Below, piece by piece: positions 46,009 to 64,000 of a stretch of DNA of 64,000 nucleotides. The DNA comes from Corynebacterium falsenii (GTDB lineage: Bacteria > Actinomycetota > Actinomycetes > Mycobacteriales > Mycobacteriaceae): the NCBI RefSeq assembly GCF_020099275.1, contig NZ_CP083646.1, positions 2,046,001 through 2,110,000 on the forward strand, written 5' to 3'. The first letter of the stretch is position 1. Every line of letters begins with the position of its first letter. The notes beneath the pieces were generated by a model that searched no databases, was not told the DNA's origin, and saw only the letters and a list, made by a program, of their open reading frames with translations. The position numbers and the translations under genes are program-made.

Positions 46009-47868
46009 TCAGCGCCGATCCTTCCCCGCAATCTCCCCGGCTTCGTAGGCCAGCCGGACCTCATCGCTCTCCCATTCCTGCCCCATCACACGCATCCCCG
46101 GCGCCTCGCGCGCGGTCGTGGAACCGTTGATCGCCACCTCGTCGCTCAACCGCGGATGCCTATTCAATTGCGAACGACTCTGATGCCCTGCAGATCGCGA
46201 CCCACCCGGCGCGCTCGAACCATCAGTCCAATCCGACGCGCTCGAACCATCAGTCCCACCCCGCGTCGGCGAATTCACGCCCAACTCGCCCACATCCAAT
46301 ACTCCCGGAAGCGCAAGCGGCTCCGCATCATCCGCATCGGCACGGGCGCGCGCCTCGCGCCACCCAACCCGCCCCGTTACCGGGTCCACCTCCGCGTGCC
46401 CCATCCCCAGGCCACCATCGCGTTGATCCCTATTCATACGGTGATGATGGCGGCAGAGCAGCGTCAGATTTTCAATATCCGTCCTTCCCCCACGCGCCCA
46501 AGCCAGCACATGATGCACATCCGACTCGCACGCCGACTGGTTGCACCCCGGGTAGGCACAGCACAACTGCTCAGCGACCAACATGAGCTTCTGTTGCACC
46601 GACGCATGGCGCTTCACCTTCGCCGAATCCAGCGCGCGCCCAGTTTTTGGTTCGACGACAACCCCCAGGTCGTGCTGCGCCAAACCGAGGCGTAGGACAT
46701 CCAGTGGGCTCAGCTTGGCGTTGGTGTTCGTCGGCAGCCACCGCGTGCTAGCCCCAGCCGGCGCATCGCCGGAATCGCCGGAATCGGCAGCATCGCCCGG
46801 ATCGGAGCACCCCTCCGGCAGCTGGGTGAGATCCTTCGCCGACATGGCGATGACCAGCGACGCTAAGCCTCGAGTCCGTCCGCTGGCCGCCGCATCGCCT
46901 TCCTCGGCCCACTTCTCAAACATCGCCATGAGCGCATCCGCCCTGCGCTGCGGCAGCGACCGCTTGTCCTCCTCAACATCGATCCCCCTCTTCTTCTCCC
47001 AGGCGACGAGCCGCGCCGGGGCCAGCAACACCTCCAGCAAGGCATGACCCGTACGAGGCAGCACAGCGTTGAGTCGAACGTTGCCGCGCTCATCCGGCTG
47101 CGACCACGTGACTTTGCGGGCGCGCAGATCAGCGAAAGGATCCCCAACAGACCGGTTCGCCTCCCTGACCTTGGAACGGAGCCAGAGCTTCAGGTCAGAG
47201 AGAGACGTCTCCTCAGCCTTCTTCGTGGCCTCGTTGAGCAGGTCCTCGTGGCATTGGGACTTAAGGCTGTCATCGAGGTGCTCAAGCTCGCGGTTGATTT
47301 CAGACAACTTTGCGTTGGACAGATCCCGTGCGCGGCGGCGTGCCTCGGCCTGGTCACGAAGTTGCTTCTGATGCAGTTCGTGCTGCTTGCGCCGTTCGGC
47401 CAGCTCGTCGTGACCATCCAGTGCGTCTGGGCGATCGGGGTCCGTTGTGGCGTCGGATAAAGGAGGTGCGATGGTGGCAGGCGGTGGTGCGGCGAAGAGT
47501 TTCATGCCCAAGCTGAGCCACTGTTTTGCCTGGTACCTGGAGATATCCAGCGCGCGAACAAGGTAGTCGGCGGTGTGGACGGAGCCGACCTTGCGGGAGG
47601 CCTGGGCCTCGGACGCGGCGAAGGCGAACGCTGCGTGGAGAGTATCGGTGCGATTGGTGACGCGAATGAGCTGCCGCAGCTCGTGCTCGTGGCGTCGAAA
47701 AAGATCAGCTGGCGAAGCGATAAGTGCATCCGTGATCAGCTGCAATGACCGCTCAACATCCTGCACGAGTTCGGTGATCGTGCGGGCTTGGTTGATCGTT
47801 GCGCTGCCTACTGTGTTGGCGTCTGCGTTGTCCTCTGTGCTGTCTACGATGAGCTGTGCGGATGTCAT
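46009..47868 (-). CDS. DUF222 / HNH endonuclease-like protein (13E12 repeat family)
   Basis: 619 residues. The N-terminal DUF222-type helical region (LIRVTNRTDTLHAAFAFAASEA, YLVRALDISRYQAKQWLSLG) is followed by a long charged coiled-coil-like insertion (about residues 150-235, rich in Arg/Glu/Gln), then the central region, and an HNH nuclease motif at about 430-475 with a zinc-like CCAYPGCNQ, DVHHVLAWARGGRTDIENL and LCRHHHRMNRD. The C-terminal 130 residues are variable with TDGSSA repeats. These proteins are abundant in actinobacteria and behave like mobile or selfish genes; the cellular role is unknown. Start ATG 47866-47868 follows GGGGGA. Confidence 0.88.
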   Translation of the reverse strand: MTSAQLIVDSTEDNADANTVGSATINQARTITELVQDVERSLQLITDALIASPADLFRRHEHELRQLIRVTNRTDTLHAAFAFAASEAQASRKVGSVHTADYLVRALDISRYQAKQWLSLGMKLFAAPPPATIAPPLSDATTDPDRPDALDGHDELAERRKQHELHQKQLRDQAEARRRARDLSNAKLSEINRELEHLDDSLKSQCHEDLLNEATKKAEETSLSDLKLWLRSKVREANRSVGDPFADLRARKVTWSQPDERGNVRLNAVLPRTGHALLEVLLAPARLVAWEKKRGIDVEEDKRSLPQRRADALMAMFEKWAEEGDAAASGRTRGLASLVIAMSAKDLTQLPEGCSDPGDAADSGDSGDAPAGASTRWLPTNTNAKLSPLDVLRLGLAQHDLGVVVEPKTGRALDSAKVKRHASVQQKLMLVAEQLCCAYPGCNQSACESDVHHVLAWARGGRTDIENLTLLCRHHHRMNRDQRDGGLGMGHAEVDPVTGRVGWREARARADADDAEPLALPGVLDVGELGVNSPTRGGTDGSSASDWTDGSSAPGGSRSAGHQSRSQLNRHPRLSDEVAINGSTTAREAPGMRVMGQEWESDEVRLAYEAGEIAGKDRR

Positions 47869-50367: not shown

Positions 50368-51198
50368 ATGGAGACATTCACCGGCGCGAACGGTTTCTCG
50401 CTCCCCAAGCTCGGACTCGGCACCTACAAACTCAAAGGCGAGTCGGGCGCCCGTTCCGTACTCTCCGGCATTGAGGCCGGCTACCGTCTCATCGATACCG
50501 CGTACAACTACGAGAACGAGGGAGCCGTTGGCGAGGGGATTCGTAGGGGCGTCGACCAAGGGGTGCCCCGCGAAGAGATCATCGTGACATCCAAGCTTCC
50601 CGGCCGCTACCAGCAGGAAGCTGTGCAGACGGTGGAGGAATCGCTGTTCCGATTGGGTCTGGACTACATCGACCTGTACCTCATTCATTGGCCGAATCCG
50701 AAGCAGGGCCACTACGTGGAGGCTTACCGTGGGCTTATGGAGGCACGCGATAAGGGCCTGATCAGGCACGTTGGCGTGTGCAACTTTCTGCCCGAGCACC
50801 TAGAGGCGATCCGCGAGGCCACCGGCGAGCTTCCCGTTGTGAATCAGATTGAGCTTCATCCGTACTTCCCTCAGCTGGACGCGCTGGAGTACCACCGCAA
50901 GCACGGGATCATCACCCAGGCGTGGAGCCCCCTGGCGCGCGGCGATGTGTTCGAGCAGGCGCCGATTGTGGACGCCGCCGAGGCTCACGACGCCTCACCC
51001 GCACAGGTTGTTCTCGCGTGGCACCGCGCCATTGGTGCGCTGGCGATTCCGAAGGCGTCGTCGCGGGAGCGCCAGGAGCAGAACCTGCGTTCGCTCACCA
51101 TCAACCTCACTGACGACGAAGTTGCGGCGATTTCGGCGCTGGGGCGCCCGGACGGCCGGCGCAAGGACCAGGATCCTGCGGAGTACGAGGAGTTCTAG
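50368..51198 (+). CDS. Aldo/keto reductase
   Basis: 276 residues from ATG 50368, preceded by AAAGGA at seven bases. The catalytic tetrad is visible: Asp and Tyr in LIDTAYNYENEG, Lys in VTSKLPGRY, His in LIHWPNPKQG. N-terminal LPKLGLGTYKL and C-terminal IPKASSRERQEQNLRS (NADPH-binding) are also typical of the AKR5 group of 2,5-diketo-gluconate and related carbonyl reductases. The substrate is not known. It lies 115 bases after ligA in the same direction, in a C/T-rich gap without a terminator. The longer frame from 50200 overlaps ligA and was rejected. Confidence 0.92.
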   Translation: METFTGANGFSLPKLGLGTYKLKGESGARSVLSGIEAGYRLIDTAYNYENEGAVGEGIRRGVDQGVPREEIIVTSKLPGRYQQEAVQTVEESLFRLGLDYIDLYLIHWPNPKQGHYVEAYRGLMEARDKGLIRHVGVCNFLPEHLEAIREATGELPVVNQIELHPYFPQLDALEYHRKHGIITQAWSPLARGDVFEQAPIVDAAEAHDASPAQVVLAWHRAIGALAIPKASSRERQEQNLRSLTINLTDDEVAAISALGRPDGRRKDQDPAEYEEF

Positions 51199-51350
51199 AT
51201 GCAGCGCTAGGTAGGCGAGACTCTGGGGGGATGCGTTGTGAGGCTTCGTTCAGCTCGCGTGCGCGCTGCTTTCTGGCTGTTCTTTCGTTGCGACGCCACC
51301 AGCCCGACCGCCTCTTCGGCTCCTCGAATCCGACGATGGTCCGAGGCCCG

Positions 51351-51408
51351 GGGAGATCGCGCCCCGTGAGTTCGGGTCCGGGAGATCGGGCCCCGTGAGT
51401 TCGGGCCC
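51351..51408. repeat. 29-bp direct tandem repeat
   Basis: The unit GGGAGATCGCGCCCCGTGAG plus TTCGGGTCC at 51351-51379 is repeated at 51380-51408 with two differences. It has the look of a local duplication without coding meaning. Confidence 0.85.
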
Positions 51409-51446
51409 AGCGGGATCGAGGGGTTCTTGTGTTTCCGGCTAAGATT

Positions 51447-51467
51447 CCGGTCCGAAATCCGGATCCG
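51447..51467. repeat. Dispersed element CCGGTCCGAAATCCGGATCC
   Basis: A single copy of the palindromic element in the orientation opposite to those at 45863-45994, in the gap between the aldo/keto reductase gene and the ArdC-like gene. Confidence 0.85.
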
Positions 51468-51877
51468 CTGGAGAACATTCACTGGTCGGCACCGGGCTTT
51501 GACCGCATGGTTGGCCCGGGGATATTACTCGCCTGGTTGGCACTGAGAGCTTGTGGGGATTGCGCTTTGTGGGGCTCGTCAGGCTTGTGAAGATGGTGGA
51601 GCTTGTGGGGCTCGGCCACCGTTGTGGCTCCCGCACTCGAACTGAACCTTCACTGACTTATACACGATATAGAACTTATGAACCATTAAGGGGATCCGGG
51701 CAGCGCCCGTTGTCCACCTCGGTCACTAAAGTGCTCAATCACCGCACACAACCACAACCTCCCGAACCTCCCTAACTCCTCTGTTCGCCACACAATCTCA
51801 CACTCGACCGCCACTTCACGTCCATATCTTCACTGACACGCGATTAAACCCGCCATCGAGAGAAAGCCGAAGCCACC

Positions 51878-53167
51878 ATGACGAGTCGCGCATTATTCCA
51901 CACGCTCTCCAGCAAGCTCCCCAGGTTCGACTGGGCCCATGAGTCGGTCGACTCCCCCTCTGCCCTCATCTCATACCTTGAGGACCATGACCCCGCTTTC
52001 AAACCGCAGCACCCTCAACCTGGCCAAACGCAAAGTCTTGAACGCGAACAACGCAACGATCGAGTAGACGACCGACAAGACGACCCTGATGCCGCGCAAC
52101 TCGAACGGGATATTCAAGCGGACAAACTACGCAAGCTGAAGGCAGCGCAAAGTAACGAGGACATACGCACATTCGTCACTCACTTGTGCGCTCTGTCCAG
52201 CTTGAGCCTGTACAACGCCGTGCTCGCGCTCACGCAGAAACCAACAGCAACCACCGCTCTCAGTCCGAGTAAGTGGCACCAGCTAGGTTTTGGCACGAAA
52301 ATCGGAGCCCGGGGAATCGTCATCGCCCACCCGAAGGGCCCCACCTCCTACGTGTATGACATCGAGGACGTCGAACCCCTCAACTCCCGCCGACTGACCG
52401 CGGAGCAGGCGGACCCATACACCGCTGTTGCTAACAATCGCGGGCGCTTTTCGCAGTGTGTCCTTGATCCTATTCGCGTCGCATCCCAGATCAACGACAA
52501 ACTTGGAGAGCTCGGACTACGCACCAGCGTTTCGTACCCCGTGCAAGGGTTCAGCAGCGAATCCACTTTTCCGGTGTCAGTCATACCGCTGTCCTTCACG
52601 CCGAGTAATTCGCAGCCGCTCAAAAAGGTAACACCGTATGGAGTCGAATGGCCACCGTTGTACCGCATTGAGTTTCCCGCTGTGGTTCCCAACGAAGTGG
52701 TGTGCGGCAAGATTGATGCCGGATCCGCGGAAGATCCGATGGATAGACCAATGCTCTCCGGGATCGACTGGATAGATCCCCGCAACTCGGCTCTAAAATT
52801 GCTGTACACGCTATTCGGCATCGCATTGGCCACCACCGCTTACAACGCCCCCTGGATGCAATCGCAGCACGACGAATACCGCCGACGCAAGCCGGAAGAT
52901 CTCTTTCAAAATGCATCCGATCGCTTGGACAGGTACATTCCAATCACAACAGCCGAGTTTGAAGCATCCATGGCTGTGTACATCGTGGTTCGGCGATTTT
53001 CCTGGGATTTTTCGGTGCCGATCGCCGAAGATTTCATCGCCGATGATGCAGTCTTGCCTCCTGTGGGAGCCTCCTTCTTTTCCGTCCTTCAAGCTGCGCA
53101 CTATCTGGAAAAGCTCATCCTCAACAAGGGAATATATAAGCCGCATTTGATCTCGCTCTCCAACTAG
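51878..53167 (+). CDS. ArdC-like protein (putative antirestriction, N-terminal domain)
   Basis: 429 residues. After a polar N-terminus, a block at about residues 85-170 (FVTHLCALSSLSLYNAVLAL, TQKPTATTALSPSKWHQLG, GARGIVIAHP, YVYDIEDV) resembles the ssDNA-binding N-terminal domain of ArdC-type antirestriction proteins (small domain ending in the pattern K-x-G-x-x-x-x-x-G-x-x-G-I-x-I-x-x-P ... V-Y-D-V). The expected metalloprotease motif HExxH is absent; the C-terminal part is novel to me. Base composition is lower in G+C than core genes and the gene lies 2.3 kb before a restriction-type operon. Antirestriction or regulatory function is inference. Confidence 0.5.
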   Translation: MTSRALFHTLSSKLPRFDWAHESVDSPSALISYLEDHDPAFKPQHPQPGQTQSLEREQRNDRVDDRQDDPDAAQLERDIQADKLRKLKAAQSNEDIRTFVTHLCALSSLSLYNAVLALTQKPTATTALSPSKWHQLGFGTKIGARGIVIAHPKGPTSYVYDIEDVEPLNSRRLTAEQADPYTAVANNRGRFSQCVLDPIRVASQINDKLGELGLRTSVSYPVQGFSSESTFPVSVIPLSFTPSNSQPLKKVTPYGVEWPPLYRIEFPAVVPNEVVCGKIDAGSAEDPMDRPMLSGIDWIDPRNSALKLLYTLFGIALATTAYNAPWMQSQHDEYRRRKPEDLFQNASDRLDRYIPITTAEFEASMAVYIVVRRFSWDFSVPIAEDFIADDAVLPPVGASFFSVLQAAHYLEKLILNKGIYKPHLISLSN

Positions 53168-53419
53168 AGGCGTGACACTTCCATTAGTGACGCAACCGGC
53201 TGGAGACGCAACCGAAAAGCATAACTGAGAGACACAACCCAGAAACTCACCAAGAAATGCAACCCAGCCCCACAGCACTAAAGCCCCCACATCACCACAG
53301 CCACCACAACCCCACCAGAGCACTAACGCTCCCAGCCCCACAGCAACGCCTCACCCACTTTCGAGTTGTTCTCCCGCCTCTCAGCCCCGATCAGAAACTC
53401 TCCGTGAAATACTGAAACA

Positions 53420-54421
53420 ATGACTGCCTCTCACCGTGCTTCCAAGACTTGCCCAGCTACGTTCGCAAACGTGACCCTCGCGCCGCGCACCTCACATCGC
53501 GCGGCCACCACCTCCTCCCGCCGCGCAGCGACCGCCACGGCCACCGCCGCCCTCGCGCTGTCCGCGGGTCCGGCCCTAGCCACCACCGCGTCCGCTGCCC
53601 CAGTGCCGAACCTCAACCCGAACGGCACCATCAACACCCCAGCTCGCACCCAGATTTCCTTCGAGCACACTCCCACCGGATTCCACGCCGGCACCGCGAA
53701 CGAGCACGAGTCGCGCCCCGGCCTGTCGATCGTGAAGATGTACATCGCCGACTACGTCTACGCCCACGGCACGCCCGAGGAAAAGGCGCAGGCCACGCAG
53801 ATGCTCCGCACGTCGGATGACCGCATCGCCTCGCAGCTCTACGCCAAGTATCCTCAGTCCATTAACGAAACCGCCCGGGCTTACGGCCTCAACGACACTC
53901 ACGGCGCAGCTCACTGGGGCAATTCGACGACCTCCACGGCCGATAGCGTGAAGTACCTCGAGGCGAAGAAGCGCCAGAACCTGACTGACCCGGTGTTGGT
54001 TGCGCTGGCTACGGCGTCGCCGGTAGCGGCCGACGGTTACGCGCAGAACTATGGAACCGCCACGCTGCCTGGTGTGATCGGTACGAAGTGGGGCTGGTCG
54101 GATGATCGCCGGTCCTTCCACGCGTCCGCTTCCTACGGCACGGATTTCTCGGTGGCCGCTGCCACGAACGGCCCGGCTGCGCAGCTCACTGGCGATGTCC
54201 AGGCAGCGTTCGTTCCGGGTATTTCCACCCCGACGCCACCAGTCGCCCCCGGCATCCTCGGCTCCTCTGGTCTGGGCATGGTGAACTACCCGGCGCGGTT
54301 GGTGGCGCAGCAGCAGATTGGCCACATCGCGCCTCCCGTCACGGACCCGATCATCGCGACGATCCCGGAGAACGTGCTGGTCCCGCAGCCGGTCGCGGGC
54401 TTCCTGCCGCAGCCTCGGTAG
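53420..54421 (+). CDS. Secreted serine-hydrolase-like protein (beta-lactamase fold)
   Basis: 333 residues. The first 60 include a basic stretch, then a hydrophobic Ala/Thr core ending in TTASAAPVPN, so it is probably secreted (an atypically long signal; a later start may be used). An SxxK motif is present in SRPGLSIVKMYIADYV (about residue 105), a GNSTTSTAD block occupies the place of the second loop, and KWG in IGTKWGWSDD takes the place of the KTG triad. Together these resemble the penicillin-binding/beta-lactamase superfamily; peptidoglycan or esterase activity is inferred. The C-terminal 70 residues are Pro-rich. The gene stands alone. Confidence 0.6.
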   Translation: MTASHRASKTCPATFANVTLAPRTSHRAATTSSRRAATATATAALALSAGPALATTASAAPVPNLNPNGTINTPARTQISFEHTPTGFHAGTANEHESRPGLSIVKMYIADYVYAHGTPEEKAQATQMLRTSDDRIASQLYAKYPQSINETARAYGLNDTHGAAHWGNSTTSTADSVKYLEAKKRQNLTDPVLVALATASPVAADGYAQNYGTATLPGVIGTKWGWSDDRRSFHASASYGTDFSVAAATNGPAAQLTGDVQAAFVPGISTPTPPVAPGILGSSGLGMVNYPARLVAQQQIGHIAPPVTDPIIATIPENVLVPQPVAGFLPQPR

Positions 54422-54436
54422 AGGTGGGCAGGGCTC

Positions 54437-54456
54437 GGTCCGGATTTCGGATCGGG
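54437..54456. repeat. Dispersed element GGTCCGGATTTCGGATCGGG
   Basis: A single copy exactly between the convergent ends of the secreted-protein gene (54421) and the DUF421 gene (54457), where a terminator would be expected. It can fold as a short CCGAT/ATCGG-like hairpin only with mismatches. Confidence 0.85.
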
Positions 54457-54978
54457 TTACCGCTGCCGCTCCCGCTTCCCCAGCTCAGCCAACGCCGCAC
54501 CCGATCCCACCTTGTCGCGCGTGATTGTCGAGACGGTGCCGTCCGTCTCCAGCACCATCGCCGCGATGGCATCCAATCCGCCGTGCCCGGCCTGCCGCGC
54601 GGCCTGGTAGACGTCGGATTCACCCAGCCGGGCAGCCTTCAGCCCCTCGGGGATCATCTCGCCGTCGCGCACCAAAACCACCGGCGACGCCGTCACCAGC
54701 GCCCGCAGCCCCTGCCGATCTCGGATCAGCCTTGCCACGATGAACTGCAGCGCCAGCATCAGACCGATGCCCACCACGCCAGCGCTGAAAGCCAGGTCGG
54801 TCGAGGTCACGGCAGTCGCGAGCATCGAGCCCACAGCCACGGTCACCGCAAAGTCGAATGCGTTGAACTTCGCCAGCGACCTCGCGCCCGTCACCCGCAG
54901 CATGATGAGCAGCGCGAAATACGACGCCCCACCAACCAGCAGAATGCGCACAATCGGATCCATCCCTGAAAACCACAT
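54457..54978 (-). CDS. DUF421 (YetF-like) membrane protein
   Basis: 173 residues from ATG 54976-54978 (MWFSGMDPIVRILLVG). Three membrane segments are followed by the YetF-type cytoplasmic domain (RDRQGLRALVTASPVVLVRDGEMIPEGLKAAR). The motif RVTGARSLAKFNAFDFAVTVAVGS is diagnostic of DUF421. The C-terminus ends in a short basic tail. The longer frame to 55119 translates a Gly/Val repeat region and was not used. Function of the family is unknown, although spore germination or membrane stress roles were reported in Bacillus. Confidence 0.85.
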   Translation of the reverse strand: MWFSGMDPIVRILLVGGASYFALLIMLRVTGARSLAKFNAFDFAVTVAVGSMLATAVTSTDLAFSAGVVGIGLMLALQFIVARLIRDRQGLRALVTASPVVLVRDGEMIPEGLKAARLGESDVYQAARQAGHGGLDAIAAMVLETDGTVSTITRDKVGSGAALAELGKRERQR

Positions 54979-55442
54979 ACGTGACAGTATGCACGATTCG
55001 CGCAGTTCAGCAGCGCCAACGTTAATGCTCCCGCCGACGATCACCCCGACGCTCGCGCCAAGGCCGAGACCGACGCCGAGCCCCACGCCGACGTCGCCAC
55101 GTGCGGACAAGCTCAACAACTACATCGCTCGAGCGACAATGGATCTAAGCGACTTTTCTAAATTAAAACACATAGTCTAATAAGGGCTTGGAGGATCAGG
55201 CGTTGTCGCAGGTCAAAGCTATAATTGAGGCCGAACCACCAAGCAATCCAGCTACCCTCAGCCCAGCCTTTGAGATCCGTTCCGATCCGAAATCCGGATC
55301 GCAGTTCGCCTCATCCACTTAGGTGACCCGGTCCGAAATCCGGATCGGCGATCCTCGGTACCCCCTTTCGAAGCCACCAGTTCACACCATCAGTTCCGAT
55401 AGCTCCCCCGGCACTTGGCCCCTTAACTACACTGAAAAACCT
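54979..55442. other. 464-bp intergenic region before the defence operon
   Basis: Holds a GCCGACGCC-type repeat (55030-55095), an AT-rich segment (55140-55240) with a TATAAT at 55220-55225, and two copies of the dispersed element (listed). A short TTG-initiated frame at about 55203 with GGAGG upstream would encode about 40 residues and cannot be confirmed. It must contain promoters of the DUF421 gene and the helicase gene. Confidence 0.6.
55280..55348. repeat. Two dispersed elements upstream of the defence operon
   Basis: Copies TTCCGATCCGAAATCCGGAT (55280-55301) and CCGGTCCGAAATCCGGATCG (55328-55348) are in the same orientation, separated by 26 bases. The second lies in the frame upstream of the helicase start (peptide RSEIRIGD), so this upstream part is not considered coding. 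Confidence 0.85.
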
Positions 55443-58400
55443 ATGACTGACGCGCCCTTCTCCTCCGCCGCACCCGCCGATCGCCCCACCAGCGCCGCCG
55501 CCGCACCCGCCGCACCAACCAGCCTCGACCAACTCGCCCCCGGCGTCACCGTCGAAGTTCGCAACGAGTCGTGGCTCGTCACCCACGTCGCCCGCACCAC
55601 CGACGGATTCCGCGTCAAAGTCCGCGGACTCTCCGATTACGTCCGCGACACCACCGCCACCTTCTTCACCGCCCTCGACGACATCCGCGTCTTCGACCCC
55701 GCCGCCGTCACGCCTGTCGCCGACAACTCCCCCGGCTTCCGCCATTCCAAACTCTGGCTCGAGTCCACCATCCGCCAAACCCCGGTGCCGCTCCACCACC
55801 CTCACCCCGACGTCTCCGACCGGATGCTCGCCGACCCCCTCGACTACCAACTCGCCGCCGTCCGCCACGCCCTCAACCCCAATCGCGCGCAGCCCCGACT
55901 CCTTTTAGCCGACGCCGTTGGCCTCGGCAAAACCCTGGAAATTGGTATGATCGCCGCCGAGTTGATCCGCCGCGGATGCGGCGAACGCATCCTCGTGGTC
56001 ACTCCCAAGCATGTCCTCGAGCAGTTCCAACAGGAGCTGTGGACCCGCTTCGCCATTCCCCTCGTCCGCCTCGATTCCCAGGGCATCCAGAAGGTCCGCC
56101 AGAAGCTGCCCGCCAGCAAGAACCCCTTCACGTACTTCCCCCGCGTCATCGTCTCCATGGACACGCTCAAGTCCGCCAAGTACATGGCGCAGCTTGAGAA
56201 GGTGAGCTGGGACATCGTCATCGTCGACGAAATCCACAACGCCACCAACTCCGGTACCCAGAACAACCGCCTCATCCGCACCCTCGCTCCGCGCACTGAC
56301 GCGCTGATCCTGGCCTCCGCCACCCCGCACAACGGCAACCCGGATTCCTTCAAGGAGATTCTGCGCCTCCTCGATCCCCTCTCTGTCTCCCCGGACGGCA
56401 TCATCGACCAGAAGGCCGCCAAGGATCTGATTCTCCGCCGCCACCGTAACTCCCCCGAGGTGGCATCTGTGGTCGGAGATAAGTGGGCCATCCGTGAGGA
56501 ACCGAAGAATATCCTCGTTGAGGCGTCGAACGAAGAAACAGCGGTGGCGCGGGAGCTCAGCGATACGTGGCTCGGCACGAAGCTCAGCGGGGACCTGTTC
56601 CCGTGGACGTTGGTGAAGGCGTATCTGTCCTCTCCGGCGGCGCTGGCGGAGACGATCAACAACCGGTTGGACACGCTCGGCGGCAACAGCAACAACAACA
56701 CCAACTCCACCGACGCAAACCAGATCGCCGCCCTCCACCACCTCCGCGACCTCAACAGCCGCATCACTCCAGAGACCTCCAACAAGTATTGGCAGCTCGT
56801 CGACTACCTCCAGGACATCGGCGTGGGCAAGAAGTCGCCGACCCGCGCGGTGATTTTCTCCGAGCGCGTCGCCACCTTGCGCTTCCTCGAGGAGAACCTC
56901 GCCAAGCATCTCAAGCTCCCCACCGGCGCGGTCCGCATCATGCACGGCGGCATGTCCGATATCGAGCAGATGGAGCTCATCGACGAGTTCAAGCGCGCCG
57001 ACACTCCCCTGCGCGTGCTCATCACGGGAGACGTCGCCAGCGAGGGCGTGAACCTCCACACCCAGTGCCACCACCTCATCCACTACGACATCCCCTGGTC
57101 CCTGATCCGCATTCAGCAGCGCAATGGCCGCATCGATCGTTATGGCCAGACCGAGCCGCCGCAGATCACCACCTTGCTGCTCGACCCGGCCGAGGGCGTG
57201 GGCGAGACGCACGTGTTGCAGAAGCTCGTGGAGCGCGAGCATGAGGCGCACGAGATGTTGGGCGATGCGGCGTCGTTGATGGGCCAACACACGATCCGCG
57301 GCGAGGAGGATCAGATCCGCGACGTACTCCGCGGCCTCCGCGATCTCGACTCGACTGTCCGCTCCCCGGGGGAGATGTTGGCGCAGGCTCGGGCGGTGCA
57401 GGAGGCGGCGATGAGCGATGCGCCCTCAAGCGCATCATCAGGCTCATCATCAAGCTCGTCGTCTTCGTCCGACGCCGCCACGTCCGCACTACCCGACCAG
57501 GGCGTAGACGCGTTTTTGGCGTGGCTGTCTTCCTCAGAGGGTGTCAGCGAGCCTCAATCGGAGACCCCGCGCGCAGCCAGCCTGTACGCCGGGGAGCAAG
57601 AATACCTGGTGGATGCGCTGGCGGAGGCGTTTCACGATGTGCCGTCCGATTCCCCAGCCCGCGGCGGTGTGGCCCTGAGCATCAACGACAACCGCACCCT
57701 GGAGCTGACTCCGCCGCCGGATCTGCAACGAAGGTTCGACCTACTCCCCCAGGACTACGTGGAGTATCGGCATGTCAAGGACCGGCTCATGCTGGCCACC
57801 TCCGTGGCGCGTGGCGAGTCGCAGTTGCAGGATGCGCGCAACAGCGATTCCAAGACGTGGCCGAAGGCGCACTTCTTGGGTCCGCTGCATCCGGTGACGG
57901 ATTGGGCGGCGGATAGGGCGCTGTCCGCCATGACCAAGTCCGAGATCCCCGCATTCGCCGCAGACGTGGATCAGCTCACGGTGCTCATGATGGCCACGCT
58001 GACGAGCTCGCGCGGGCGGGTGATCACTCGGTCGTTCCTCATCGCCACCCCGGGCCCATTCGGCCTGGATGTGGAAGAAGGCATGCCCGCTGCCACGGTT
58101 GATTCGGTGGAACCGGTGCGCTGGCTGCGCACCATCGGCCTCGATGAGCAGGCGATCTCCACCGGGCAACTTACCGTGCCCCCGGAGGCCCGCCGTCTGA
58201 TCTCCGCGGGCCTGGCCGCCGCGGAGCACCAGCTCGATGTGATTAAGGAAAACGGCACTGAGAAAGCCCGCCGCCGCGTGGATGAATGGCTGGAGCGAGC
58301 CGACCGCTGGGAGGCCTCGATCTCGCGCGGCAACCAGGCCCTCATCCGTTCGAAGCAGGTGGTGGACAAGCAGCGGGAGATGCTCAAGGCAACCATCCCG

Positions 58401-58451
58401 GAGCGCTCGCTGATCCGCCCGCTCGCCGTCATCATCCCCCGCACCGCTTAA
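55443..58451 (+). CDS. SNF2-family helicase of a DISARM-like defence system (DrmD-like)
   Basis: 1002 residues from ATG 55443. Helicase motifs in order: Walker A ADAVGLGKTLEIG (about residue 156), Ia VVTPKHVLEQFQ, motif II VDEIHNATN (about 260, DEIH box), motif III LASATPHNGN (291), then the C-terminal half with motif V ITGDVASEGVNLH and VI QQRNGRIDRYGQ (558). This is an SF2 helicase of the SNF2/Rad54 branch, as in DrmD and related phage-defence proteins. A Ser-rich linker occurs at 57412-57480. A weak TACACT box 10 bases before the ATG suggests a leaderless message. It is followed after 34 bases by the methyltransferase gene. Confidence 0.88.
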   Translation: MTDAPFSSAAPADRPTSAAAAPAAPTSLDQLAPGVTVEVRNESWLVTHVARTTDGFRVKVRGLSDYVRDTTATFFTALDDIRVFDPAAVTPVADNSPGFRHSKLWLESTIRQTPVPLHHPHPDVSDRMLADPLDYQLAAVRHALNPNRAQPRLLLADAVGLGKTLEIGMIAAELIRRGCGERILVVTPKHVLEQFQQELWTRFAIPLVRLDSQGIQKVRQKLPASKNPFTYFPRVIVSMDTLKSAKYMAQLEKVSWDIVIVDEIHNATNSGTQNNRLIRTLAPRTDALILASATPHNGNPDSFKEILRLLDPLSVSPDGIIDQKAAKDLILRRHRNSPEVASVVGDKWAIREEPKNILVEASNEETAVARELSDTWLGTKLSGDLFPWTLVKAYLSSPAALAETINNRLDTLGGNSNNNTNSTDANQIAALHHLRDLNSRITPETSNKYWQLVDYLQDIGVGKKSPTRAVIFSERVATLRFLEENLAKHLKLPTGAVRIMHGGMSDIEQMELIDEFKRADTPLRVLITGDVASEGVNLHTQCHHLIHYDIPWSLIRIQQRNGRIDRYGQTEPPQITTLLLDPAEGVGETHVLQKLVEREHEAHEMLGDAASLMGQHTIRGEEDQIRDVLRGLRDLDSTVRSPGEMLAQARAVQEAAMSDAPSSASSGSSSSSSSSSDAATSALPDQGVDAFLAWLSSSEGVSEPQSETPRAASLYAGEQEYLVDALAEAFHDVPSDSPARGGVALSINDNRTLELTPPPDLQRRFDLLPQDYVEYRHVKDRLMLATSVARGESQLQDARNSDSKTWPKAHFLGPLHPVTDWAADRALSAMTKSEIPAFAADVDQLTVLMMATLTSSRGRVITRSFLIATPGPFGLDVEEGMPAATVDSVEPVRWLRTIGLDEQAISTGQLTVPPEARRLISAGLAAAEHQLDVIKENGTEKARRRVDEWLERADRWEASISRGNQALIRSKQVVDKQREMLKATIPERSLIRPLAVIIPRTA

Positions 58452-58485
58452 CCTCAGCACCGCTTAACCCCCGACAGGACATCTC

Positions 58486-61400
58486 ATGGCTTCTTTCGAT
58501 TCCATCGCCAACGTTGATGAGTGGATCAGCGATTACTACCTGACCAACGACGAATCCAAGGGCGAGTCCTTCGGCAAGCGCGCCGAAGCAGCAGTCAAGC
58601 AGTGGAAGGCGGAGGACAAGGCCGCCGCCCAAACCAGCCCCTGGTCCCGCCTGTCGTCTCGGCGCAACCAGCTGCAAACGGTGCTCTCCACCATCTCCGC
58701 GGACTCCACCGATTCCGCAGACGAGGCCGCCGCAGCCATCGAGGCCGCCTTCGGCTACCCGGCCCCGACTACTCAGCGGCTCGCGCTCGGGTCCTCCACG
58801 CTGTCCCTGTCGGCAGCGCTGCAGCACCAGGCCGCCGTGGTGCGCATCGATCCCATCACCGGTATCGAGGAGTTGGTGGAGGCGATGCCGCGGTGTGGCG
58901 TCGAACTAGATGGCAAACCGGTGGACTGGACGGCCACGAAGTTGGTTACCGAGTTGTTCCTGGCGGACACCCCACCGGCGTTCGTGGTGCTCATCGCGGG
59001 GGCGTGGGTGGTGCTCGCGGAGCGGGAGTCGTGGCCACTCGGCCGGTACCTCGGCGTGGATGTGTCCCTGGCCGCGGAGCGCAACGATACGAAGGCCAAG
59101 GGCGAGCTCATGCAGGTGGCTGCGGCGCTGGCGTGGGAGCACATTGCCCAGGCTGCCGATGGCACCACGTGGTGGGCGGATACGCTCGCCGAGTCCCGCG
59201 AGCACGCGGTGAAGGTCAGTGAGGATCTGCGCCAGGCGATTAAGGAATCCATCGAGATCATCGGCAATGATGTGCTCCGCCGCTACCGGGAGCAGGGCCT
59301 ATCCACGGCGGACGTCAACGGTAATGAGCTGGCCAAGCAGTCGCTGCGGTATCTCTACCGCATTTTGTTCCTGCTGTTCGCGGAGGCCTCGCCGGAGCTG
59401 AACATCCTGCCCACGGGCGTGCCGGAGTACGACGATGGTTATGGCCTGGCGAATCTGCGCGATCAGATTCTGGTGGAGCCGCCGACGGATCGGGCGGCCC
59501 GTGGCACGTACCTGTATGACAGCCTGGATGTGTTGTTCCGGTTGGTGGATCAGGGCCACGATCCCATGGATGAGTCGGCTCCTTTGTTCGACGCCCAAGC
59601 GGGCGAGGACGGACTGCAGTTTAGGAACCTCGCGGCGGATCTGTTCAAGGACAGCGCCACGGAGTACATCACGCGCACGGGCCTATCCAATGCGGCGCTG
59701 CATAAGGTGTTGCAGAACTTGCTGCTCACCCGCGAGACTCGCGGACGGGAGCGCGGCTTCGTCTCGTACGCCACGCTGGGTGTCACCCAGCTGGGCCAGG
59801 TGTATGAGGGCCTGATGAGTTACACGGGCTTCATCGCGGATCAGGAGCTGCTGGAGGTCGCCCCGCACGGCGATGCCTCTAAGGGCTCGTGGGTGGTTCC
59901 GGTGGCGCTGGCGGAGACTCTGCCTTCGGACAGCATCGTGCAGGAGCAGGTGGAGGATGCCATGGGCGTGCGCACGCGCAACCGGCGGTACGCGCCGGGG
60001 TCGTTCGTCTACCGGCAGTCGTCGCGGGATCGGGAACGTTCGGCATCGTTCTACTCGCCACCGGTGATTACGGAGTTCACGGTGGGGCAGGCCATTGAGG
60101 AGCTGCGGGAATCGCGCGTGACCTGTGCGGATGATGTGTTGAGTTTGAGCATCTGCGAGCCCGCGATGGGCTCGGGCGCGTTCGCGGTGGAGGCCGTGAA
60201 CCAGCTTGCGGAGCTGTACATCACCCTCAAGCAGGAGGAGTTGGGCGAGCAGATCCCGGCGGAGAACCTGACCGAGGAGCTGCAGCGGGTGAAGGCTTCC
60301 ATCGCGCTGCACCAGGTCTACGGCGTGGACTTGAACCGCACGGCGGTGGAGTTGGCGGAGATTTCGCTGTGGCTCAATACGATGACGGCCGAGTTGAAGG
60401 CCCCGTGGTTCGGCCTGCACCTGCGTCACGGTAATTCGCTGATCGGTGCCACCCGCTCCACGGTGACGGCTGAGAACCTGACCACGAAGAAGTACCTGCC
60501 CGAGCAGCCGACGCACCACAGTGTGGAGACCGTGGCGGAGTACATCCTGCCGAAGCAGCACAACCCAAAGCTGGCCGGCCGGGTGCATCACTTCCTGGTG
60601 CCCTCCCCGGGATGGGGCGCGGCTAGTGATTCGAAGGACCTCAAGCAGATGGCCCCGGAGGAGGTCAGGGCCATGAAGGCTTGGCGCAAGGCCGTGCAGC
60701 TGGGCTTCCGCGCGGGCCAGGTCACCGAGCTCAAGGCGCTGGCGGAGCGGGTGGAGATGCTGTGGCGCTTCGCGCTGGTGCGCCTGCAGATCGCCGAAAG
60801 CCAGATCCGCCGCGGGGTGCGGGTATGGGGTCAGCCGCCGGTTGCGGACACGCAGGCGGTCACCCGGGCCGAGATTGAAAAAGAGCTGTTCGAGAACCTC
60901 GATGGGTCCTACCAGCGCCTGCGCTTGGTGATGAATGCGTGGAATGCGCTGTGGTTCTGGCCGCTCAGCGAGATTGATGCGCTGCCGGATCACGAGGAGT
61001 GGCTGGCGATGCTGCGGGACGCCCTGGGTCACGAGAACTCAGCCTTCGACGAAAACAAAACGGCAACGCTGGGCTTCGGCTTTGACATGAACTGGAACGA
61101 TCTGGGCTTCGCAGAAAGCGTGGAGTTCGGCGCCTCGGGCGCGTTGAAGCACGATGCCCTGCTGGCGGCCCACCCGTGGCTGCGGATTGTGGAGCGGGTG
61201 AGCGAGGAGCAGTCCTTCTTCCACTGGGACTTGGACTTCGCTGCGGTGATGGCGAACGGCGGCTTTGACTTCCAGGTGGGTAACCCGCCGTGGGTGAGGC
61301 CGCGTACGGACGTGGATGCGCTGCTTTCGGAGCACGACCCGTGGTTTTCGCTCTCCAACGAGGCAACTTCGGTCAAAGAACAACGGCGAAAAGCCCTAAT

Positions 61401-63051
61401 CGAAAAGCCAGAAGTCCTATGCACGCTGTTCAGGGGCATTGGAGAAACTTCTGCCACCGCCGCCGTCCTGCGAGATACTGCGAGATATCCGCACCTTTCC
61501 GGTCAGCCCAACTCATATCGAGCCTTCATCGAGCGGAGCTGGATGAACACAAACAGGAATGGCATAATTTCGCTCATCCACCCTGGAACTCATTTCACAG
61601 ATAAGAAGGCTACCATCTTGCGCGCTGAAGCATACCGGCGCCTCCGGCGCTCGTGGAATATTACAAATAAACTCGGCCTGTTCGATATCGGAACGGACGA
61701 GAAAAACTTCAACGTTGATATTTACGCCTTTCCCAGATCGGAAATATATTTCATTCAAGCATCCGCAGTTCATCATCCAAAAGTAATTACGGAATCATTA
61801 ATTCATGACGGTTCTGGCCCCGTTCCCGCCTTCAAAACAGATGAAGGAAAATGGGATCTCCGCCCTCACCGGAGTCGCATAACTAGGGTCACTAACGCCA
61901 CCTTGAACACTTGGAAAATAATCTTAGAAGACCCAGACACTCCACTGCTCGAAACACGTTCCGTCTTTACCGTCAACACGGAGGCGGCTACTGTGCTTGA
62001 GAAGCTCGCTGCAGCACCACGCATGAAGTCTCTTGGCCTCCAGTTTTCCCGCGGGTGGGACGAGTCGATCGACAAGAAGAAAGGTTACTTCGATACCTCC
62101 TGGCAGCACGCAGAGTCGTGGTCTGACGTTATCCTGCAGGGGACCCACCTCGGTGTCTCCACCCCAATGATTAAGCAGCCCAATGAAAGCATGCGATCAA
62201 GCAAGGACTGGTCTGGGGTTGACATCGAAGAATGCTCCGAAGATTTCATCCCTGCCACGGCCTATCTGCCGAATCAAGATAAAGTAGACTACAAGACTTC
62301 CTACGGCTATTGGGTGACGACAGCGGGGCGAACCCCAGTTACCGATCATTTTCGCGTCGCGTGGAGAACAATGGCCGCAAACACTGGTTTTCGAACGTTA
62401 TATCCGGCACTTCTCCCACCGAAGGCATGCCACGCAAACGGTATACATTCTGCTGGCCCAGTGGAGAATGCGCATTCTTTGTCGGGAGCAGCGACCTCCA
62501 GTTCCTTCCTTGTCGACTTTTTCCTGCGCTCGAAAGGTCTCGCTAACATCTACGGACCAGTTTTTGAATCCCTCCCCCTCGGCACCGAGAACGCCCTCTG
62601 GCCAACCGCCGCCCGCAACTACCTGCGCCTGAACTGCCTCACCCGCGCCTACGCGCCGCTGTGGGAGCAGATCACCGGCGAGCAGTGGACCCCCAATACG
62701 CCATTGCGCAACGCCAAGGAGCGCTGGCACGCCCAGAACGAGATCGACGCGATCGTGGCCCTCTCCCTCGGCGTGACCGCCGACGAGCTGTGCATGATCT
62801 ACCGCACCCAGTTCCCCGTCATGCGCCGCTACGACCAGGAGGACCTCTACGACGCGAACGGCCGCAAAGTCCCCAAGGATATCGTGAAGCTCGAGGCCAA
62901 GCTCAAGCCCGGCCAACAGCTCACCGAGGCCGAGCGCACCTGGACCCACCCACAATCGGAAGCAACGTACACCTTCGAGTACCCCTTCGCCCCCTTGGAT
63001 CGCGAAGCCGACCTGCGCGAGGCCTACGCTCGCTTCGCCCAGGAGCTGTAA
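58486..63051 (+). CDS. Large adenine-N6 DNA methyltransferase (Eco57I/DrmMI-like)
   Basis: 1521 residues. The methyltransferase core has motif I EPAMGSGAFAVEAVNQL (about residue 558), the helical block ASIALHQVYGVDLNRTAVELAEISLWL, and motif IV VGNPPWVRP (NPPW, about 932). The N-terminal 500 residues form a long helical region with unknown fold. The C-terminal part (about 955-1520) should hold the target-recognition domain; its DNA from about 61350 to 62550 is much less G+C rich than the flanks. The protein would methylate host DNA at the system's target sequence to protect it. RBS-like AGGAC precedes ATG 58486. The stop is 9 bases before the next gene. Confidence 0.88.
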   Translation: MASFDSIANVDEWISDYYLTNDESKGESFGKRAEAAVKQWKAEDKAAAQTSPWSRLSSRRNQLQTVLSTISADSTDSADEAAAAIEAAFGYPAPTTQRLALGSSTLSLSAALQHQAAVVRIDPITGIEELVEAMPRCGVELDGKPVDWTATKLVTELFLADTPPAFVVLIAGAWVVLAERESWPLGRYLGVDVSLAAERNDTKAKGELMQVAAALAWEHIAQAADGTTWWADTLAESREHAVKVSEDLRQAIKESIEIIGNDVLRRYREQGLSTADVNGNELAKQSLRYLYRILFLLFAEASPELNILPTGVPEYDDGYGLANLRDQILVEPPTDRAARGTYLYDSLDVLFRLVDQGHDPMDESAPLFDAQAGEDGLQFRNLAADLFKDSATEYITRTGLSNAALHKVLQNLLLTRETRGRERGFVSYATLGVTQLGQVYEGLMSYTGFIADQELLEVAPHGDASKGSWVVPVALAETLPSDSIVQEQVEDAMGVRTRNRRYAPGSFVYRQSSRDRERSASFYSPPVITEFTVGQAIEELRESRVTCADDVLSLSICEPAMGSGAFAVEAVNQLAELYITLKQEELGEQIPAENLTEELQRVKASIALHQVYGVDLNRTAVELAEISLWLNTMTAELKAPWFGLHLRHGNSLIGATRSTVTAENLTTKKYLPEQPTHHSVETVAEYILPKQHNPKLAGRVHHFLVPSPGWGAASDSKDLKQMAPEEVRAMKAWRKAVQLGFRAGQVTELKALAERVEMLWRFALVRLQIAESQIRRGVRVWGQPPVADTQAVTRAEIEKELFENLDGSYQRLRLVMNAWNALWFWPLSEIDALPDHEEWLAMLRDALGHENSAFDENKTATLGFGFDMNWNDLGFAESVEFGASGALKHDALLAAHPWLRIVERVSEEQSFFHWDLDFAAVMANGGFDFQVGNPPWVRPRTDVDALLSEHDPWFSLSNEATSVKEQRRKALIEKPEVLCTLFRGIGETSATAAVLRDTARYPHLSGQPNSYRAFIERSWMNTNRNGIISLIHPGTHFTDKKATILRAEAYRRLRRSWNITNKLGLFDIGTDEKNFNVDIYAFPRSEIYFIQASAVHHPKVITESLIHDGSGPVPAFKTDEGKWDLRPHRSRITRVTNATLNTWKIILEDPDTPLLETRSVFTVNTEAATVLEKLAAAPRMKSLGLQFSRGWDESIDKKKGYFDTSWQHAESWSDVILQGTHLGVSTPMIKQPNESMRSSKDWSGVDIEECSEDFIPATAYLPNQDKVDYKTSYGYWVTTAGRTPVTDHFRVAWRTMAANTGFRTLYPALLPPKACHANGIHSAGPVENAHSLSGAATSSSFLVDFFLRSKGLANIYGPVFESLPLGTENALWPTAARNYLRLNCLTRAYAPLWEQITGEQWTPNTPLRNAKERWHAQNEIDAIVALSLGVTADELCMIYRTQFPVMRRYDQEDLYDANGRKVPKDIVKLEAKLKPGQQLTEAERTWTHPQSEATYTFEYPFAPLDREADLREAYARFAQEL
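61350..62555. other. Low-GC segment within the methyltransferase gene (likely exchanged target-recognition domain)
   Basis: Hand count: 45 of 120 bases are G/C in 61681-61800 (about 38 %), against 42 of 60 in each of the flanking stretches 61141-61200 and 62581-62640 (70 %). The borders are sharp and both fall within the open frame. Within it the translation reads as typical recognition-domain sequence with many aromatic and charged residues and no methylase motif. Confidence 0.7.
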
Positions 63052-63060
63052 GGAAAACCC

Positions 63061-64000
63061 ATGCCCAGCCTCATCCCCACCCACGCCTCCGGACACGTCG
63101 TCGGCGGCTTGAGCGAATACCTCGCCACCAGCTTCTCCCTGGCCGAGAACACCACCGCCACCAGCCTCAAGGACTTCCTCACCGACCCCGAAGGCGGCAT
63201 GTTCCACGGCCCCTACGTGCGCACGCGCCTGCCCTACGCACCAGCCACCGACTGGGAGGACGCACTGGGGTGGTTGCCCGAGGGATTCACACCGTATCGG
63301 CACCAGGCCGAGGCATTCCGGAGGTTGGCGTCGAGCGAAAAAGGACAACCCCGCAGGCCAGAACCCACCCTGGTGGTCACGGGCACGGGCTCGGGTAAAA
63401 CCGAATCCTTCCTCTACCCCATCATCGACCACTGCCTGCGCACCACCGGCACAACCGGGATCAAAGCCCTGATCCTCTACCCCATGAACGCCCTGGCCAA
63501 CGACCAAGCCGCGCGCCTAGCCGAGCTGCTCACCACGGACCCGAAACTCCGCGGCATCCGCGCCGGACTGTACACCGGCGAGGCTAGCACCACCGCCCGC
63601 CAGACCGTCAGCGACGCGGGGCTCATCACCGACCGCGACACCATGCGCGATGCCCCACCGGACATCCTGTTGACCAACTACAAGATGCTGGACCAGCTGC
63701 TGCTGCGCGGCGAGGACCGCCCGCTGTGGGAGCGCTCCGCCACCTCCCTGCAATACGTGGTCCTCGACGAGTTCCACACCTACGACGGCGCCCAAGGCAC
63801 CGACGTGGCGCTGCTACTACGGCGCATGGGCCTGACCATCAAGGCTCTGCAGCCGGAAGGTTTTCTCTCCGACGCCGACAGCACCCGACCCCTCGGGCGC
63901 ATCACGCCGGTGGCAACGTCCGCCACCCTGGGGGACAACAGCGGCGGAGACACGCCGAGCGAGATGCTCGACTTCGCGCACACCATCTTCGGCGAGCCGT
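63061..64000 (+). CDS. Large DEAD/DEAH-box helicase of the defence operon (partial, runs off the window)
   Basis: 313 residues are visible from ATG 63061 with AAGGAAAA before it; there is no stop before 64000. Motifs: Q-like YRHQAEAF, Walker A VTGTGSGKTESFLYPI (about residue 105), Ia ILYPMNALANDQAARL, Ib ILLTNYKMLDQLLL, DEAH-type box VLDEFHTYDGAQGTD (about 235), SAT motif VATSATLGD (about 287). This N-terminal pattern belongs to large helicases that often carry a DUF1998 domain at the C-terminus, related to DrmA/DrmB of DISARM. What follows downstream cannot be seen. Confidence 0.85.
   Translation, partial: MPSLIPTHASGHVVGGLSEYLATSFSLAENTTATSLKDFLTDPEGGMFHGPYVRTRLPYAPATDWEDALGWLPEGFTPYRHQAEAFRRLASSEKGQPRRPEPTLVVTGTGSGKTESFLYPIIDHCLRTTGTTGIKALILYPMNALANDQAARLAELLTTDPKLRGIRAGLYTGEASTTARQTVSDAGLITDRDTMRDAPPDILLTNYKMLDQLLLRGEDRPLWERSATSLQYVVLDEFHTYDGAQGTDVALLLRRMGLTIKALQPEGFLSDADSTRPLGRITPVATSATLGDNSGGDTPSEMLDFAHTIFGEP

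Follow-up and report, generated by a model that had tools for sequence, protein, structure and literature searches.

The right end of a 64,000-nucleotide stretch of the Corynebacterium falsenii genome (assembly GCF_020099275.1, contig NZ_CP083646.1, positions 2046001-2110000 of a one-contig genome of 2,677,377 bp; hereafter the window) carries a helicase-methyltransferase-helicase gene cluster that runs across its border, and the question raised by this locus is to which anti-phage system these genes belong. An initial annotation of the window described them as a three-gene, DISARM-related phage defence operon. With the sequence beyond the right end of the window also read, the locus is identified with high confidence as a complete ARMADA Type II defence operon in the order armA-armB-armC-armD, and its filing under ARMADA II is near certain. 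ARMADA is described in a preprint of September 2025 (PMC12458937), and this one known system replaces the DISARM reading as well as the separate labels (DrmD, Type IIG and DruE parts) derived from the PADLOC models of 2023.

The operon consists of four co-directional genes on the + strand, separated by 34, 9 and 38 bases according to the open reading frames (ORFs) of the window and its continuation. The first gene, armA (55443..58451), encodes a SNF2/RapA-like (BrxHII/DrmD-like) helicase of 1002 residues when translation begins at the ATG at 55443; an alternative start at an upstream GTG (55323) would give 1042 residues. It is followed by armB (58486..63051), the gene of a PglX/Eco57I-like DNA methyltransferase of 1521 residues; for both genes, the assignment draws on the ORF, PADLOC and Pfam matches and the match to the corresponding E. 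coli ARMADA protein. The third gene, armC (63061..64000 and on to genome position 2115624), encodes a YprA-like DEAD/DEAH helicase of 2187 residues, of which codons 1-313 lie in the window. ORFs and Pfam confirm the annotated arrangement of a SNF2 helicase, a 1521-residue methyltransferase and a DEAD helicase, spaced by 34 and 9 bases within a single operon. Reading of the adjoining DNA, a check suggested by the same annotation, places the end of armC at 2115624 and reveals a fourth gene rather than the end of a three-gene operon: armD (genome 2115663-2118089, outside the window and 38 bases after armC), which encodes an 808-residue RelE-UvrD protein.

In E. coli, all four ARMADA genes are described as required, and protection as direct and non-abortive; the motor motifs and the NPPW motif matter, with an ArmB NPPW mutant abolishing defence, while ArmD Walker B and ArmB GxG mutants show only partial loss (PMC12458937). 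The locus of E. coli ATCC 8739 was read directly and aligned pairwise with the Corynebacterium proteins; the residue numbers of the preprint refer to NCTC 12900, and each falls on the expected motif in ATCC 8739. All eight of the eight residues mutated in the E. coli work are identical in C. falsenii. Global identity to ArmA, ArmB, ArmC and ArmD of ATCC 8739 is 35, 34, 31 and 32%, respectively, with bit scores of 410 for ArmA and 625 for ArmB, and the third gene product is closer to E. coli ArmC than to E. coli DruE. The strict succession of a SNF2/BrxHII-like protein, a PglX-like methylase, a YprA-like helicase and a GajB-like UvrD protein is found here, with the YprA-family assignment of ArmC based on pairwise and hidden Markov model comparisons. 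The likeness to the loci of NCTC 12900 and ATCC 8739 (PMC12458937) thus comprises four genes, their order, their domains, the Vsr-like residues of ArmC and the RelE-like domain of ArmD. However, the E. coli loci sit in tRNA-linked islands together with Druantia and Zorya, whereas no tRNA was found near the Corynebacterium locus and no Druantia or Zorya gene among its scanned neighbours. Corynebacterium ArmB also displays a sharp variable block between near-identical copies, known here from Corynebacterium only.

ArmA contains the Pfam domains SNF2-rel_dom and Helicase_C, and RapA is its best solved relative in a structure-database comparison. Its best PADLOC model is DrmD (297 bits), followed by a DrmA model (211 bits) and by BrxHI/BrxHII (176 bits); against the NCBIfam DrmD model it scores 322 bits, below the cut-off of 610. 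ArmB matches Eco57I and MmeI_Mtase in Pfam and carries a GxG motif at residue 562 and NPPW at residues 933-936. Its initial label of N6-adenine methylase is thereby upheld as far as methyltransferase is concerned, and the N6-adenine specificity is a prediction from the NPPW motif and the family. Among PADLOC models, REase_MTase_IIG spans ArmB end to end with 1978 bits, DrmMI reaches 174 bits and the best PglX model listed 25 bits. Behind NPPW lies the variable block (residues ~951-1375; 61336..62610, + strand), the probable DNA target-recognition region according to a comparison of seven ArmB proteins.

Pfam places DEAD, Helicase_C and MZB (the DUF1998 zinc domain; residues 1640-1723) in the same ArmC chain, in agreement with the proposal that the third gene encodes a helicase fused to DUF1998. 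Since such a fusion is usual among YprA helicases and DISARM is the family with the two parts in separate proteins (PMC12458937), the further proposal that it merges two DISARM components does not hold. The solved relatives of ArmC include a 2108-residue DEAD/DEAH box helicase (9tu7) and YprA. Its top seven PADLOC models are all DruE (DruE3 and DruE1 first), with 284 bits as against at most 64 bits for DrmA models. Across 17 aligned ArmC proteins, cysteines 568/571, 674/677, 1030/1033/1052/1057, 1445/1448/1463/1466 and 1572/1575/1594 are invariant and 1709/1711/1719/1722 nearly so, a pattern that indicates several CxxC zinc modules, including DUF1998.

A Vsr-type nuclease domain is predicted at the C-terminus of ArmC (residues ~1780-1895) from conserved residues, profiles and a modelled relative, with D1839 and H1862 as its putative nuclease residues. 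Active-site-like nuclease residues are kept in 53-54 of 54 ArmC proteins, and the predicted fold of a relative's domain is Vsr-like at modest Z, with a weak Foldseek match. Alignments of this domain and of the RelE-like domain of ArmD were built from 42 of the best 80 ArmC-relative loci described below, with 38 of 42 nuclease fragments and 38 of 40 RelE fragments aligned. Among the 38 nuclease relatives, Pfam (E ≤ 1) detects MTES_1575 in 16 and Vsr in 2, and the profile of the domain retrieved nothing useful from PDB sequences, only designed proteins and a weak homing-endonuclease match. The nuclease that had been anticipated downstream of the third gene is therefore predicted, but fused within that gene; the next gene is that of the RelE-UvrD protein, and no PLD (phospholipase D) domain was found in it. 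ArmD matches UvrD in Pfam and, in PADLOC, a NERD+UvrD protein best (110 bits) and GajB with 74 bits. A RelE-like domain is likely fused N-terminally to UvrD: the ArmD N-terminus shares 25% identity with that of E. coli ArmD over 88 columns (E 1.8e-7), and the model of a relative's N-terminal domain matches YoeB/YafQ. Pfam matches to this domain are weak (ParE_like in 3 of 38 relatives), and its profile retrieved unrelated chains only from PDB sequences.

The locus is an ordinary one, since ArmB occurs in 39 of the 201 genomes of the genus search, its own included (E ≤ 1e-50). Among 40 stretches from the other 38 ArmB genomes of the genus, 30 show A-B-C-D and 10 do not. Two of these ten (L116 and L133), both from genome G489, carry an ArmB relative without armA, armC and armD in their 20-kb stretches. 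At class level, where 296 genomes were drawn, the order is seen in 17 of the first 20 stretches; the exceptions are L043, which reaches a contig end, and L051 and L053, which have extra genes between armB and armC. Ten more stretches (three of them continuations or repeats) bring in seven further genomes, and the order is then found in 21 of 27 within the stretches examined, with weak matches and two short contigs left out. In L053, L063, L051/L059, L121, L123, L125, L127 and L129, extra genes separate armB from armC by ~2.4 kb to about 14 kb, and by eye these include regulator-like and ATPase-like ORFs. The best 80 loci of ArmC relatives, taken from named genome records, are mostly from Actinomycetota, and also from Photobacterium, Halobacillus, Lachnospiraceae, a Bacteroidales and a Deltaproteobacteria bin. 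ArmD stands behind ArmC in 79 of these 80, the 80th stretch stopping at a contig end, and A, B, C and D follow in order in 49, the other 31 being without ArmA or ArmB within the stretch examined. For the residue-conservation set, ORFs outside set length ranges were dropped, leaving 57 of 65 ArmB, 52 of 54 ArmC, 45 of 46 ArmD and 49 of 49 ArmA proteins. The nearest named relatives of ArmB are C. falsenii proteins (87-88%), and C. glutamicum is among the species with relatives of ArmA and ArmC. An identical ArmA (P0001) is recorded on a contig of 2,677,607 bases, compared with 2,677,377 here, perhaps reflecting two assembly versions or very near strains.

With class 1 DISARM, the operon has in common a SNF2/RapA-like helicase, a PglX-like methylase and a YprA-family helicase, and a form of this system in which DrmA and DrmB are fused in one protein would accommodate the first and second PADLOC ranks of DrmD and a DrmA for ArmA, the DrmMI match of ArmB (174 bits) and the MZB/DUF1998 domain of the third gene product. 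This is nevertheless extremely improbable, as the third gene product gives at most 64 bits with DrmA as against 284 with DruE models, matches E. coli ArmC and is nearer to DruE and ArmC than to DrmA, and ArmA falls short of the NCBIfam DrmD cut-off. DrmB (NF038324, DrmB_fam) has no match at E ≤ 0.001 in the window's own genome, with control matches obtained in 2 of 14 genomes. No PLD domain appears in the five proteins Pfam-scanned or in the two genes behind the operon (a genome-wide search for DrmC was not made), and the fourth gene, an addition relative to DISARM, encodes a RelE-UvrD protein rather than DrmC. DISARM DrmAB is reported to be activated by 5'-overhang DNA (PMC9142583). Among the PADLOC models run on the operon proteins, DruE is best for the third gene, and what stands of the initial annotation is a DISARM-related anti-phage operon, not DISARM itself. 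That all seven leading models of the third gene product are DruE could instead point to a Druantia system with a DruE-like helicase as its basis, and ArmC and the DruE of Druantia III (DruE-DruH) are both large members of the YprA helicase family that carry zinc modules and end in a nuclease. Such a system is scarcely credible here, given that E. coli ArmC is much closer to the third gene product than E. coli DruE and that PADLOC-DB dates from 2023 and ARMADA from 2025. E. coli DruH matches none of the five proteins compared and is found in none of the best 80 ArmC-relative loci (no genome-wide search was made), and the partners are instead a methylase, a SNF2 protein and a UvrD protein. Furthermore, type III DruE ends in PLD domains (PMC13192584), whereas ArmC here ends in a predicted Vsr-like domain.

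In the most likely mechanism of the ARMADA operon, ArmB would methylate adenine in a strain-specific motif and so mark host DNA. Unmarked DNA that enters or replicates would be engaged by ArmA, as a SNF2-type translocase, and by ArmC, as a helicase that loads where DNA is forked or has a single-stranded tail; the engaged DNA would be cut by the Vsr-like nuclease domain of ArmC, ArmD would unwind or process the products, and the cell would survive. The ArmC relative DruE has been studied and unwinds forked DNA and DNA with a 3' tail (PMC13192584), and a review places ARMADA among modification-based systems of unknown restriction mechanism (PMC12904381). Methylation by ArmB is a fairly probable self mark, and for the Corynebacterium locus its activity, the methylation self mark, DNA cleavage by ArmC and recognition of the motif by ArmB residues ~951-1375 are presumed. 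It is unlikely that the main role of ArmB in the same operon is to sense phage DNA structures or to provide an assembly platform for them instead of methylating a self motif: the E. coli GxG mutant retained part of defence (PMC12458937) and DruE of Druantia reportedly recognises the architecture of DNA and not its sequence (PMC13192584), as such a role would have it, but the NPPW mutant abolished defence in E. coli (PMC12458937), and the position of the variable block after NPPW corresponds to the part of PglX that reads the motif (PMC11341690), as for a sequence-specific enzyme. Most unlikely, too, is that ArmB represents a stand-alone Type IIG restriction enzyme with the helicases as unrelated neighbours. 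The end-to-end REase_MTase_IIG match (1978 bits) and the two genus stretches in which ArmB occurs with none of the other three genes (L116 and L133) would agree with this, yet the genes remain neighbours in different phyla (ArmD follows ArmC in 79 of 80 and A-B-C-D stand in order in 49 of 80 of the best loci), and neither a lysine nor, in consequence, the D..ExK triad of an N-terminal PD-(D/E)XK nuclease is conserved at 93% or more in residues 1-540 of 59 ArmB proteins. In REBASE, homologs of BREX PglX used to be classed as Type IIG (PMC12707154), which may explain the Type IIG label on ArmB.

The variable block of ArmB and the inverted cassettes of relatives are the features worth following. 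Comparison of ArmB with six database relatives (P0006-P0011; 87-98% overall) gives 31 variable sites among 900 in residues 1-900, 228 among 510 in residues 901-1410 and 6 among 111 in residues 1411-1521. In 15 ArmB pairs (P0010 left out), identity per 100 residues is 0.88-1.00 outside 901-1400 and drops to as little as 0.50 inside; P0006 has the block version of the window's ArmB (0.97-1.00), and the other four profiled differ from it (0.50-0.79). At 25-residue resolution, the drop starts at bin 951, just after NPPW, and reaches minima at 1076-1100 and 1326-1350. A weaker form is present in four C. variabile ArmB proteins (0.78-0.90 overall), with 0.38-0.60 in residues 1301-1400. ArmC and ArmA, compared with one database relative each (97.3% and 95.6%), dip to 0.82-0.91 in a small number of 100-residue stretches and show no comparable block, and protein lists clustered at 90% form one cluster near ArmC (14 members), two near ArmA (2 and 11) and six near ArmB (16 members). 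From these single-relative comparisons and cluster counts, we infer that ArmA and ArmC are constant across strains with different ArmB blocks. The simplest reading of the block is an exchanged recognition module. BREX PglX is similarly an adenine methylase in which GxG and NPP(Y/W) motifs precede a C-terminal recognition part; PglX reads its motif with this part and has no nuclease domain (PMC11341690); the ArmB block is in the matching place. In contrast to PglX, the partners of ArmB are ARMADA helicases rather than BREX core genes, and the best PglX model listed gives 25 bits. A set of ArmB proteins whose differences are nearly confined to one block makes it testable whether ARMADA discriminates self from non-self through ArmB methylation.

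Partial copies of ArmB accompany armB in some relatives. An ArmB C-terminus was held by 128 of 150 stretches, which are not 128 independent loci because some named loci repeat other genomes, and eight of the 128 have an extra ArmB C-terminal copy, six inverted and two direct (L102 and L129). The inverted partial copies lie beside armB in five Corynebacterium loci (L097:11321-13201, L098:12330-13088, L099:7788-9104, L100:7780-8535 and L101:7722-9195) and in one Galbitalea locus (L178:182-2484), and in all five Corynebacterium loci they sit between armB and armC. Complementarity between the inverted DNA arms ranges from 72 to 92% over lengths of 97 to 569 nt, and three further short pairs measure 20 to 31 nt. 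For the five Corynebacterium loci, identity between the copy and the armB protein in the first 25-residue bin is 0.76-0.96 in four and 0.40, then 0.80, in L101; it reaches 1.00 at 1167-1241 in L099 and is lowest, at 0.16-0.40, in bins whose first residue lies between 1318 and 1380. The inner arm is thus highly similar to armB and the recognition part diverged in four of the five. Four copies contain a single stop in their reading frame, and 14 occur in L101, whose region holds two ORFs. Taken together, the variable block and the inverted copies suggest an exchangeable, perhaps switchable, specificity module.

There is roughly an even chance that ARMADA II of Corynebacterium possesses an exchangeable and, in some species, invertible ArmB specificity module next to a constant ArmA, ArmC and methylase core, with the recognition part exchanged among strains or switched with a silent cassette that lies inverted next to armB. 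That the inverted copies are decayed duplicates is a possible alternative. If such an exchangeable or invertible module exists, the self mark and the resisted phages would change by recombination. HsdS of Type I systems changes specificity by recombination. No second ArmB match was found in the window's own genome in the class, genus and C-terminal-copy searches. The terms "inverted" and "phase variation" are absent from the main text of the ARMADA preprint, supplements aside (PMC12458937), ARMADA is not mentioned in the consulted parts of the BREX phase-variation paper (PMC12707154), and no literature search joined ARMADA with phase variation. A tyrosine-recombinase-like ORF, recognised by eye, lies at L099:9013-10311 beside the inverted copy.

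On the left, the operon is bordered by the gene of a YetF/DUF421 membrane protein (54457..55119, - strand), which is outside the defence system. The ligA gene ends 5.2 kb upstream of armA here and just upstream of armA in L104, and relatives of a 333-residue secreted gene (53420-54421) lie next to ARMADA in L103 and L105, so that the site may be one that the nearest relatives have in common and not a new acquisition. A CN-hydrolase gene and a DCC1-like gene follow armD on the - strand, and a 101-residue ORF directly behind armD, also opposite to it in orientation (L005:17090-17450 (-)), has no Pfam family. One relative without an ArmB match, G302, was examined over 40 kb and does not show an empty insertion site: it keeps a YetF gene (81%), with a relative of the 333-residue secreted gene (46%) some 7 kb away, and ligA, the CN-hydrolase gene and mnmA are all absent from the 40 kb.

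A mobile element was considered and rejected, as no tRNA occurs in window positions 40000-64000 or the next 26 kb and the GC content of the four genes is 61.5-66.7%, compared with 64.7% for window positions 1-51000; no search was aimed at integrases. Against this rejection, GC content is lower in the flanks (60.6% at 51001-55442 and 56.7% in the 2.9 kb behind armD), and an old mobile element may carry the operon. A 429-residue gene (51878-53167) was likewise rejected as a fifth component: it has relatives in 6 of 201 genus genomes, and among the 39 with ArmB only in its own and in G460. Its product has no PADLOC, Pfam or NCBIfam match, and a distant relative of it is located behind armD in L104. 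Finally, a 619-residue ORF (46009-47868, - strand) shows an HNH-endonuclease-like motif by eye, and a relative of it lies behind armD in L118.

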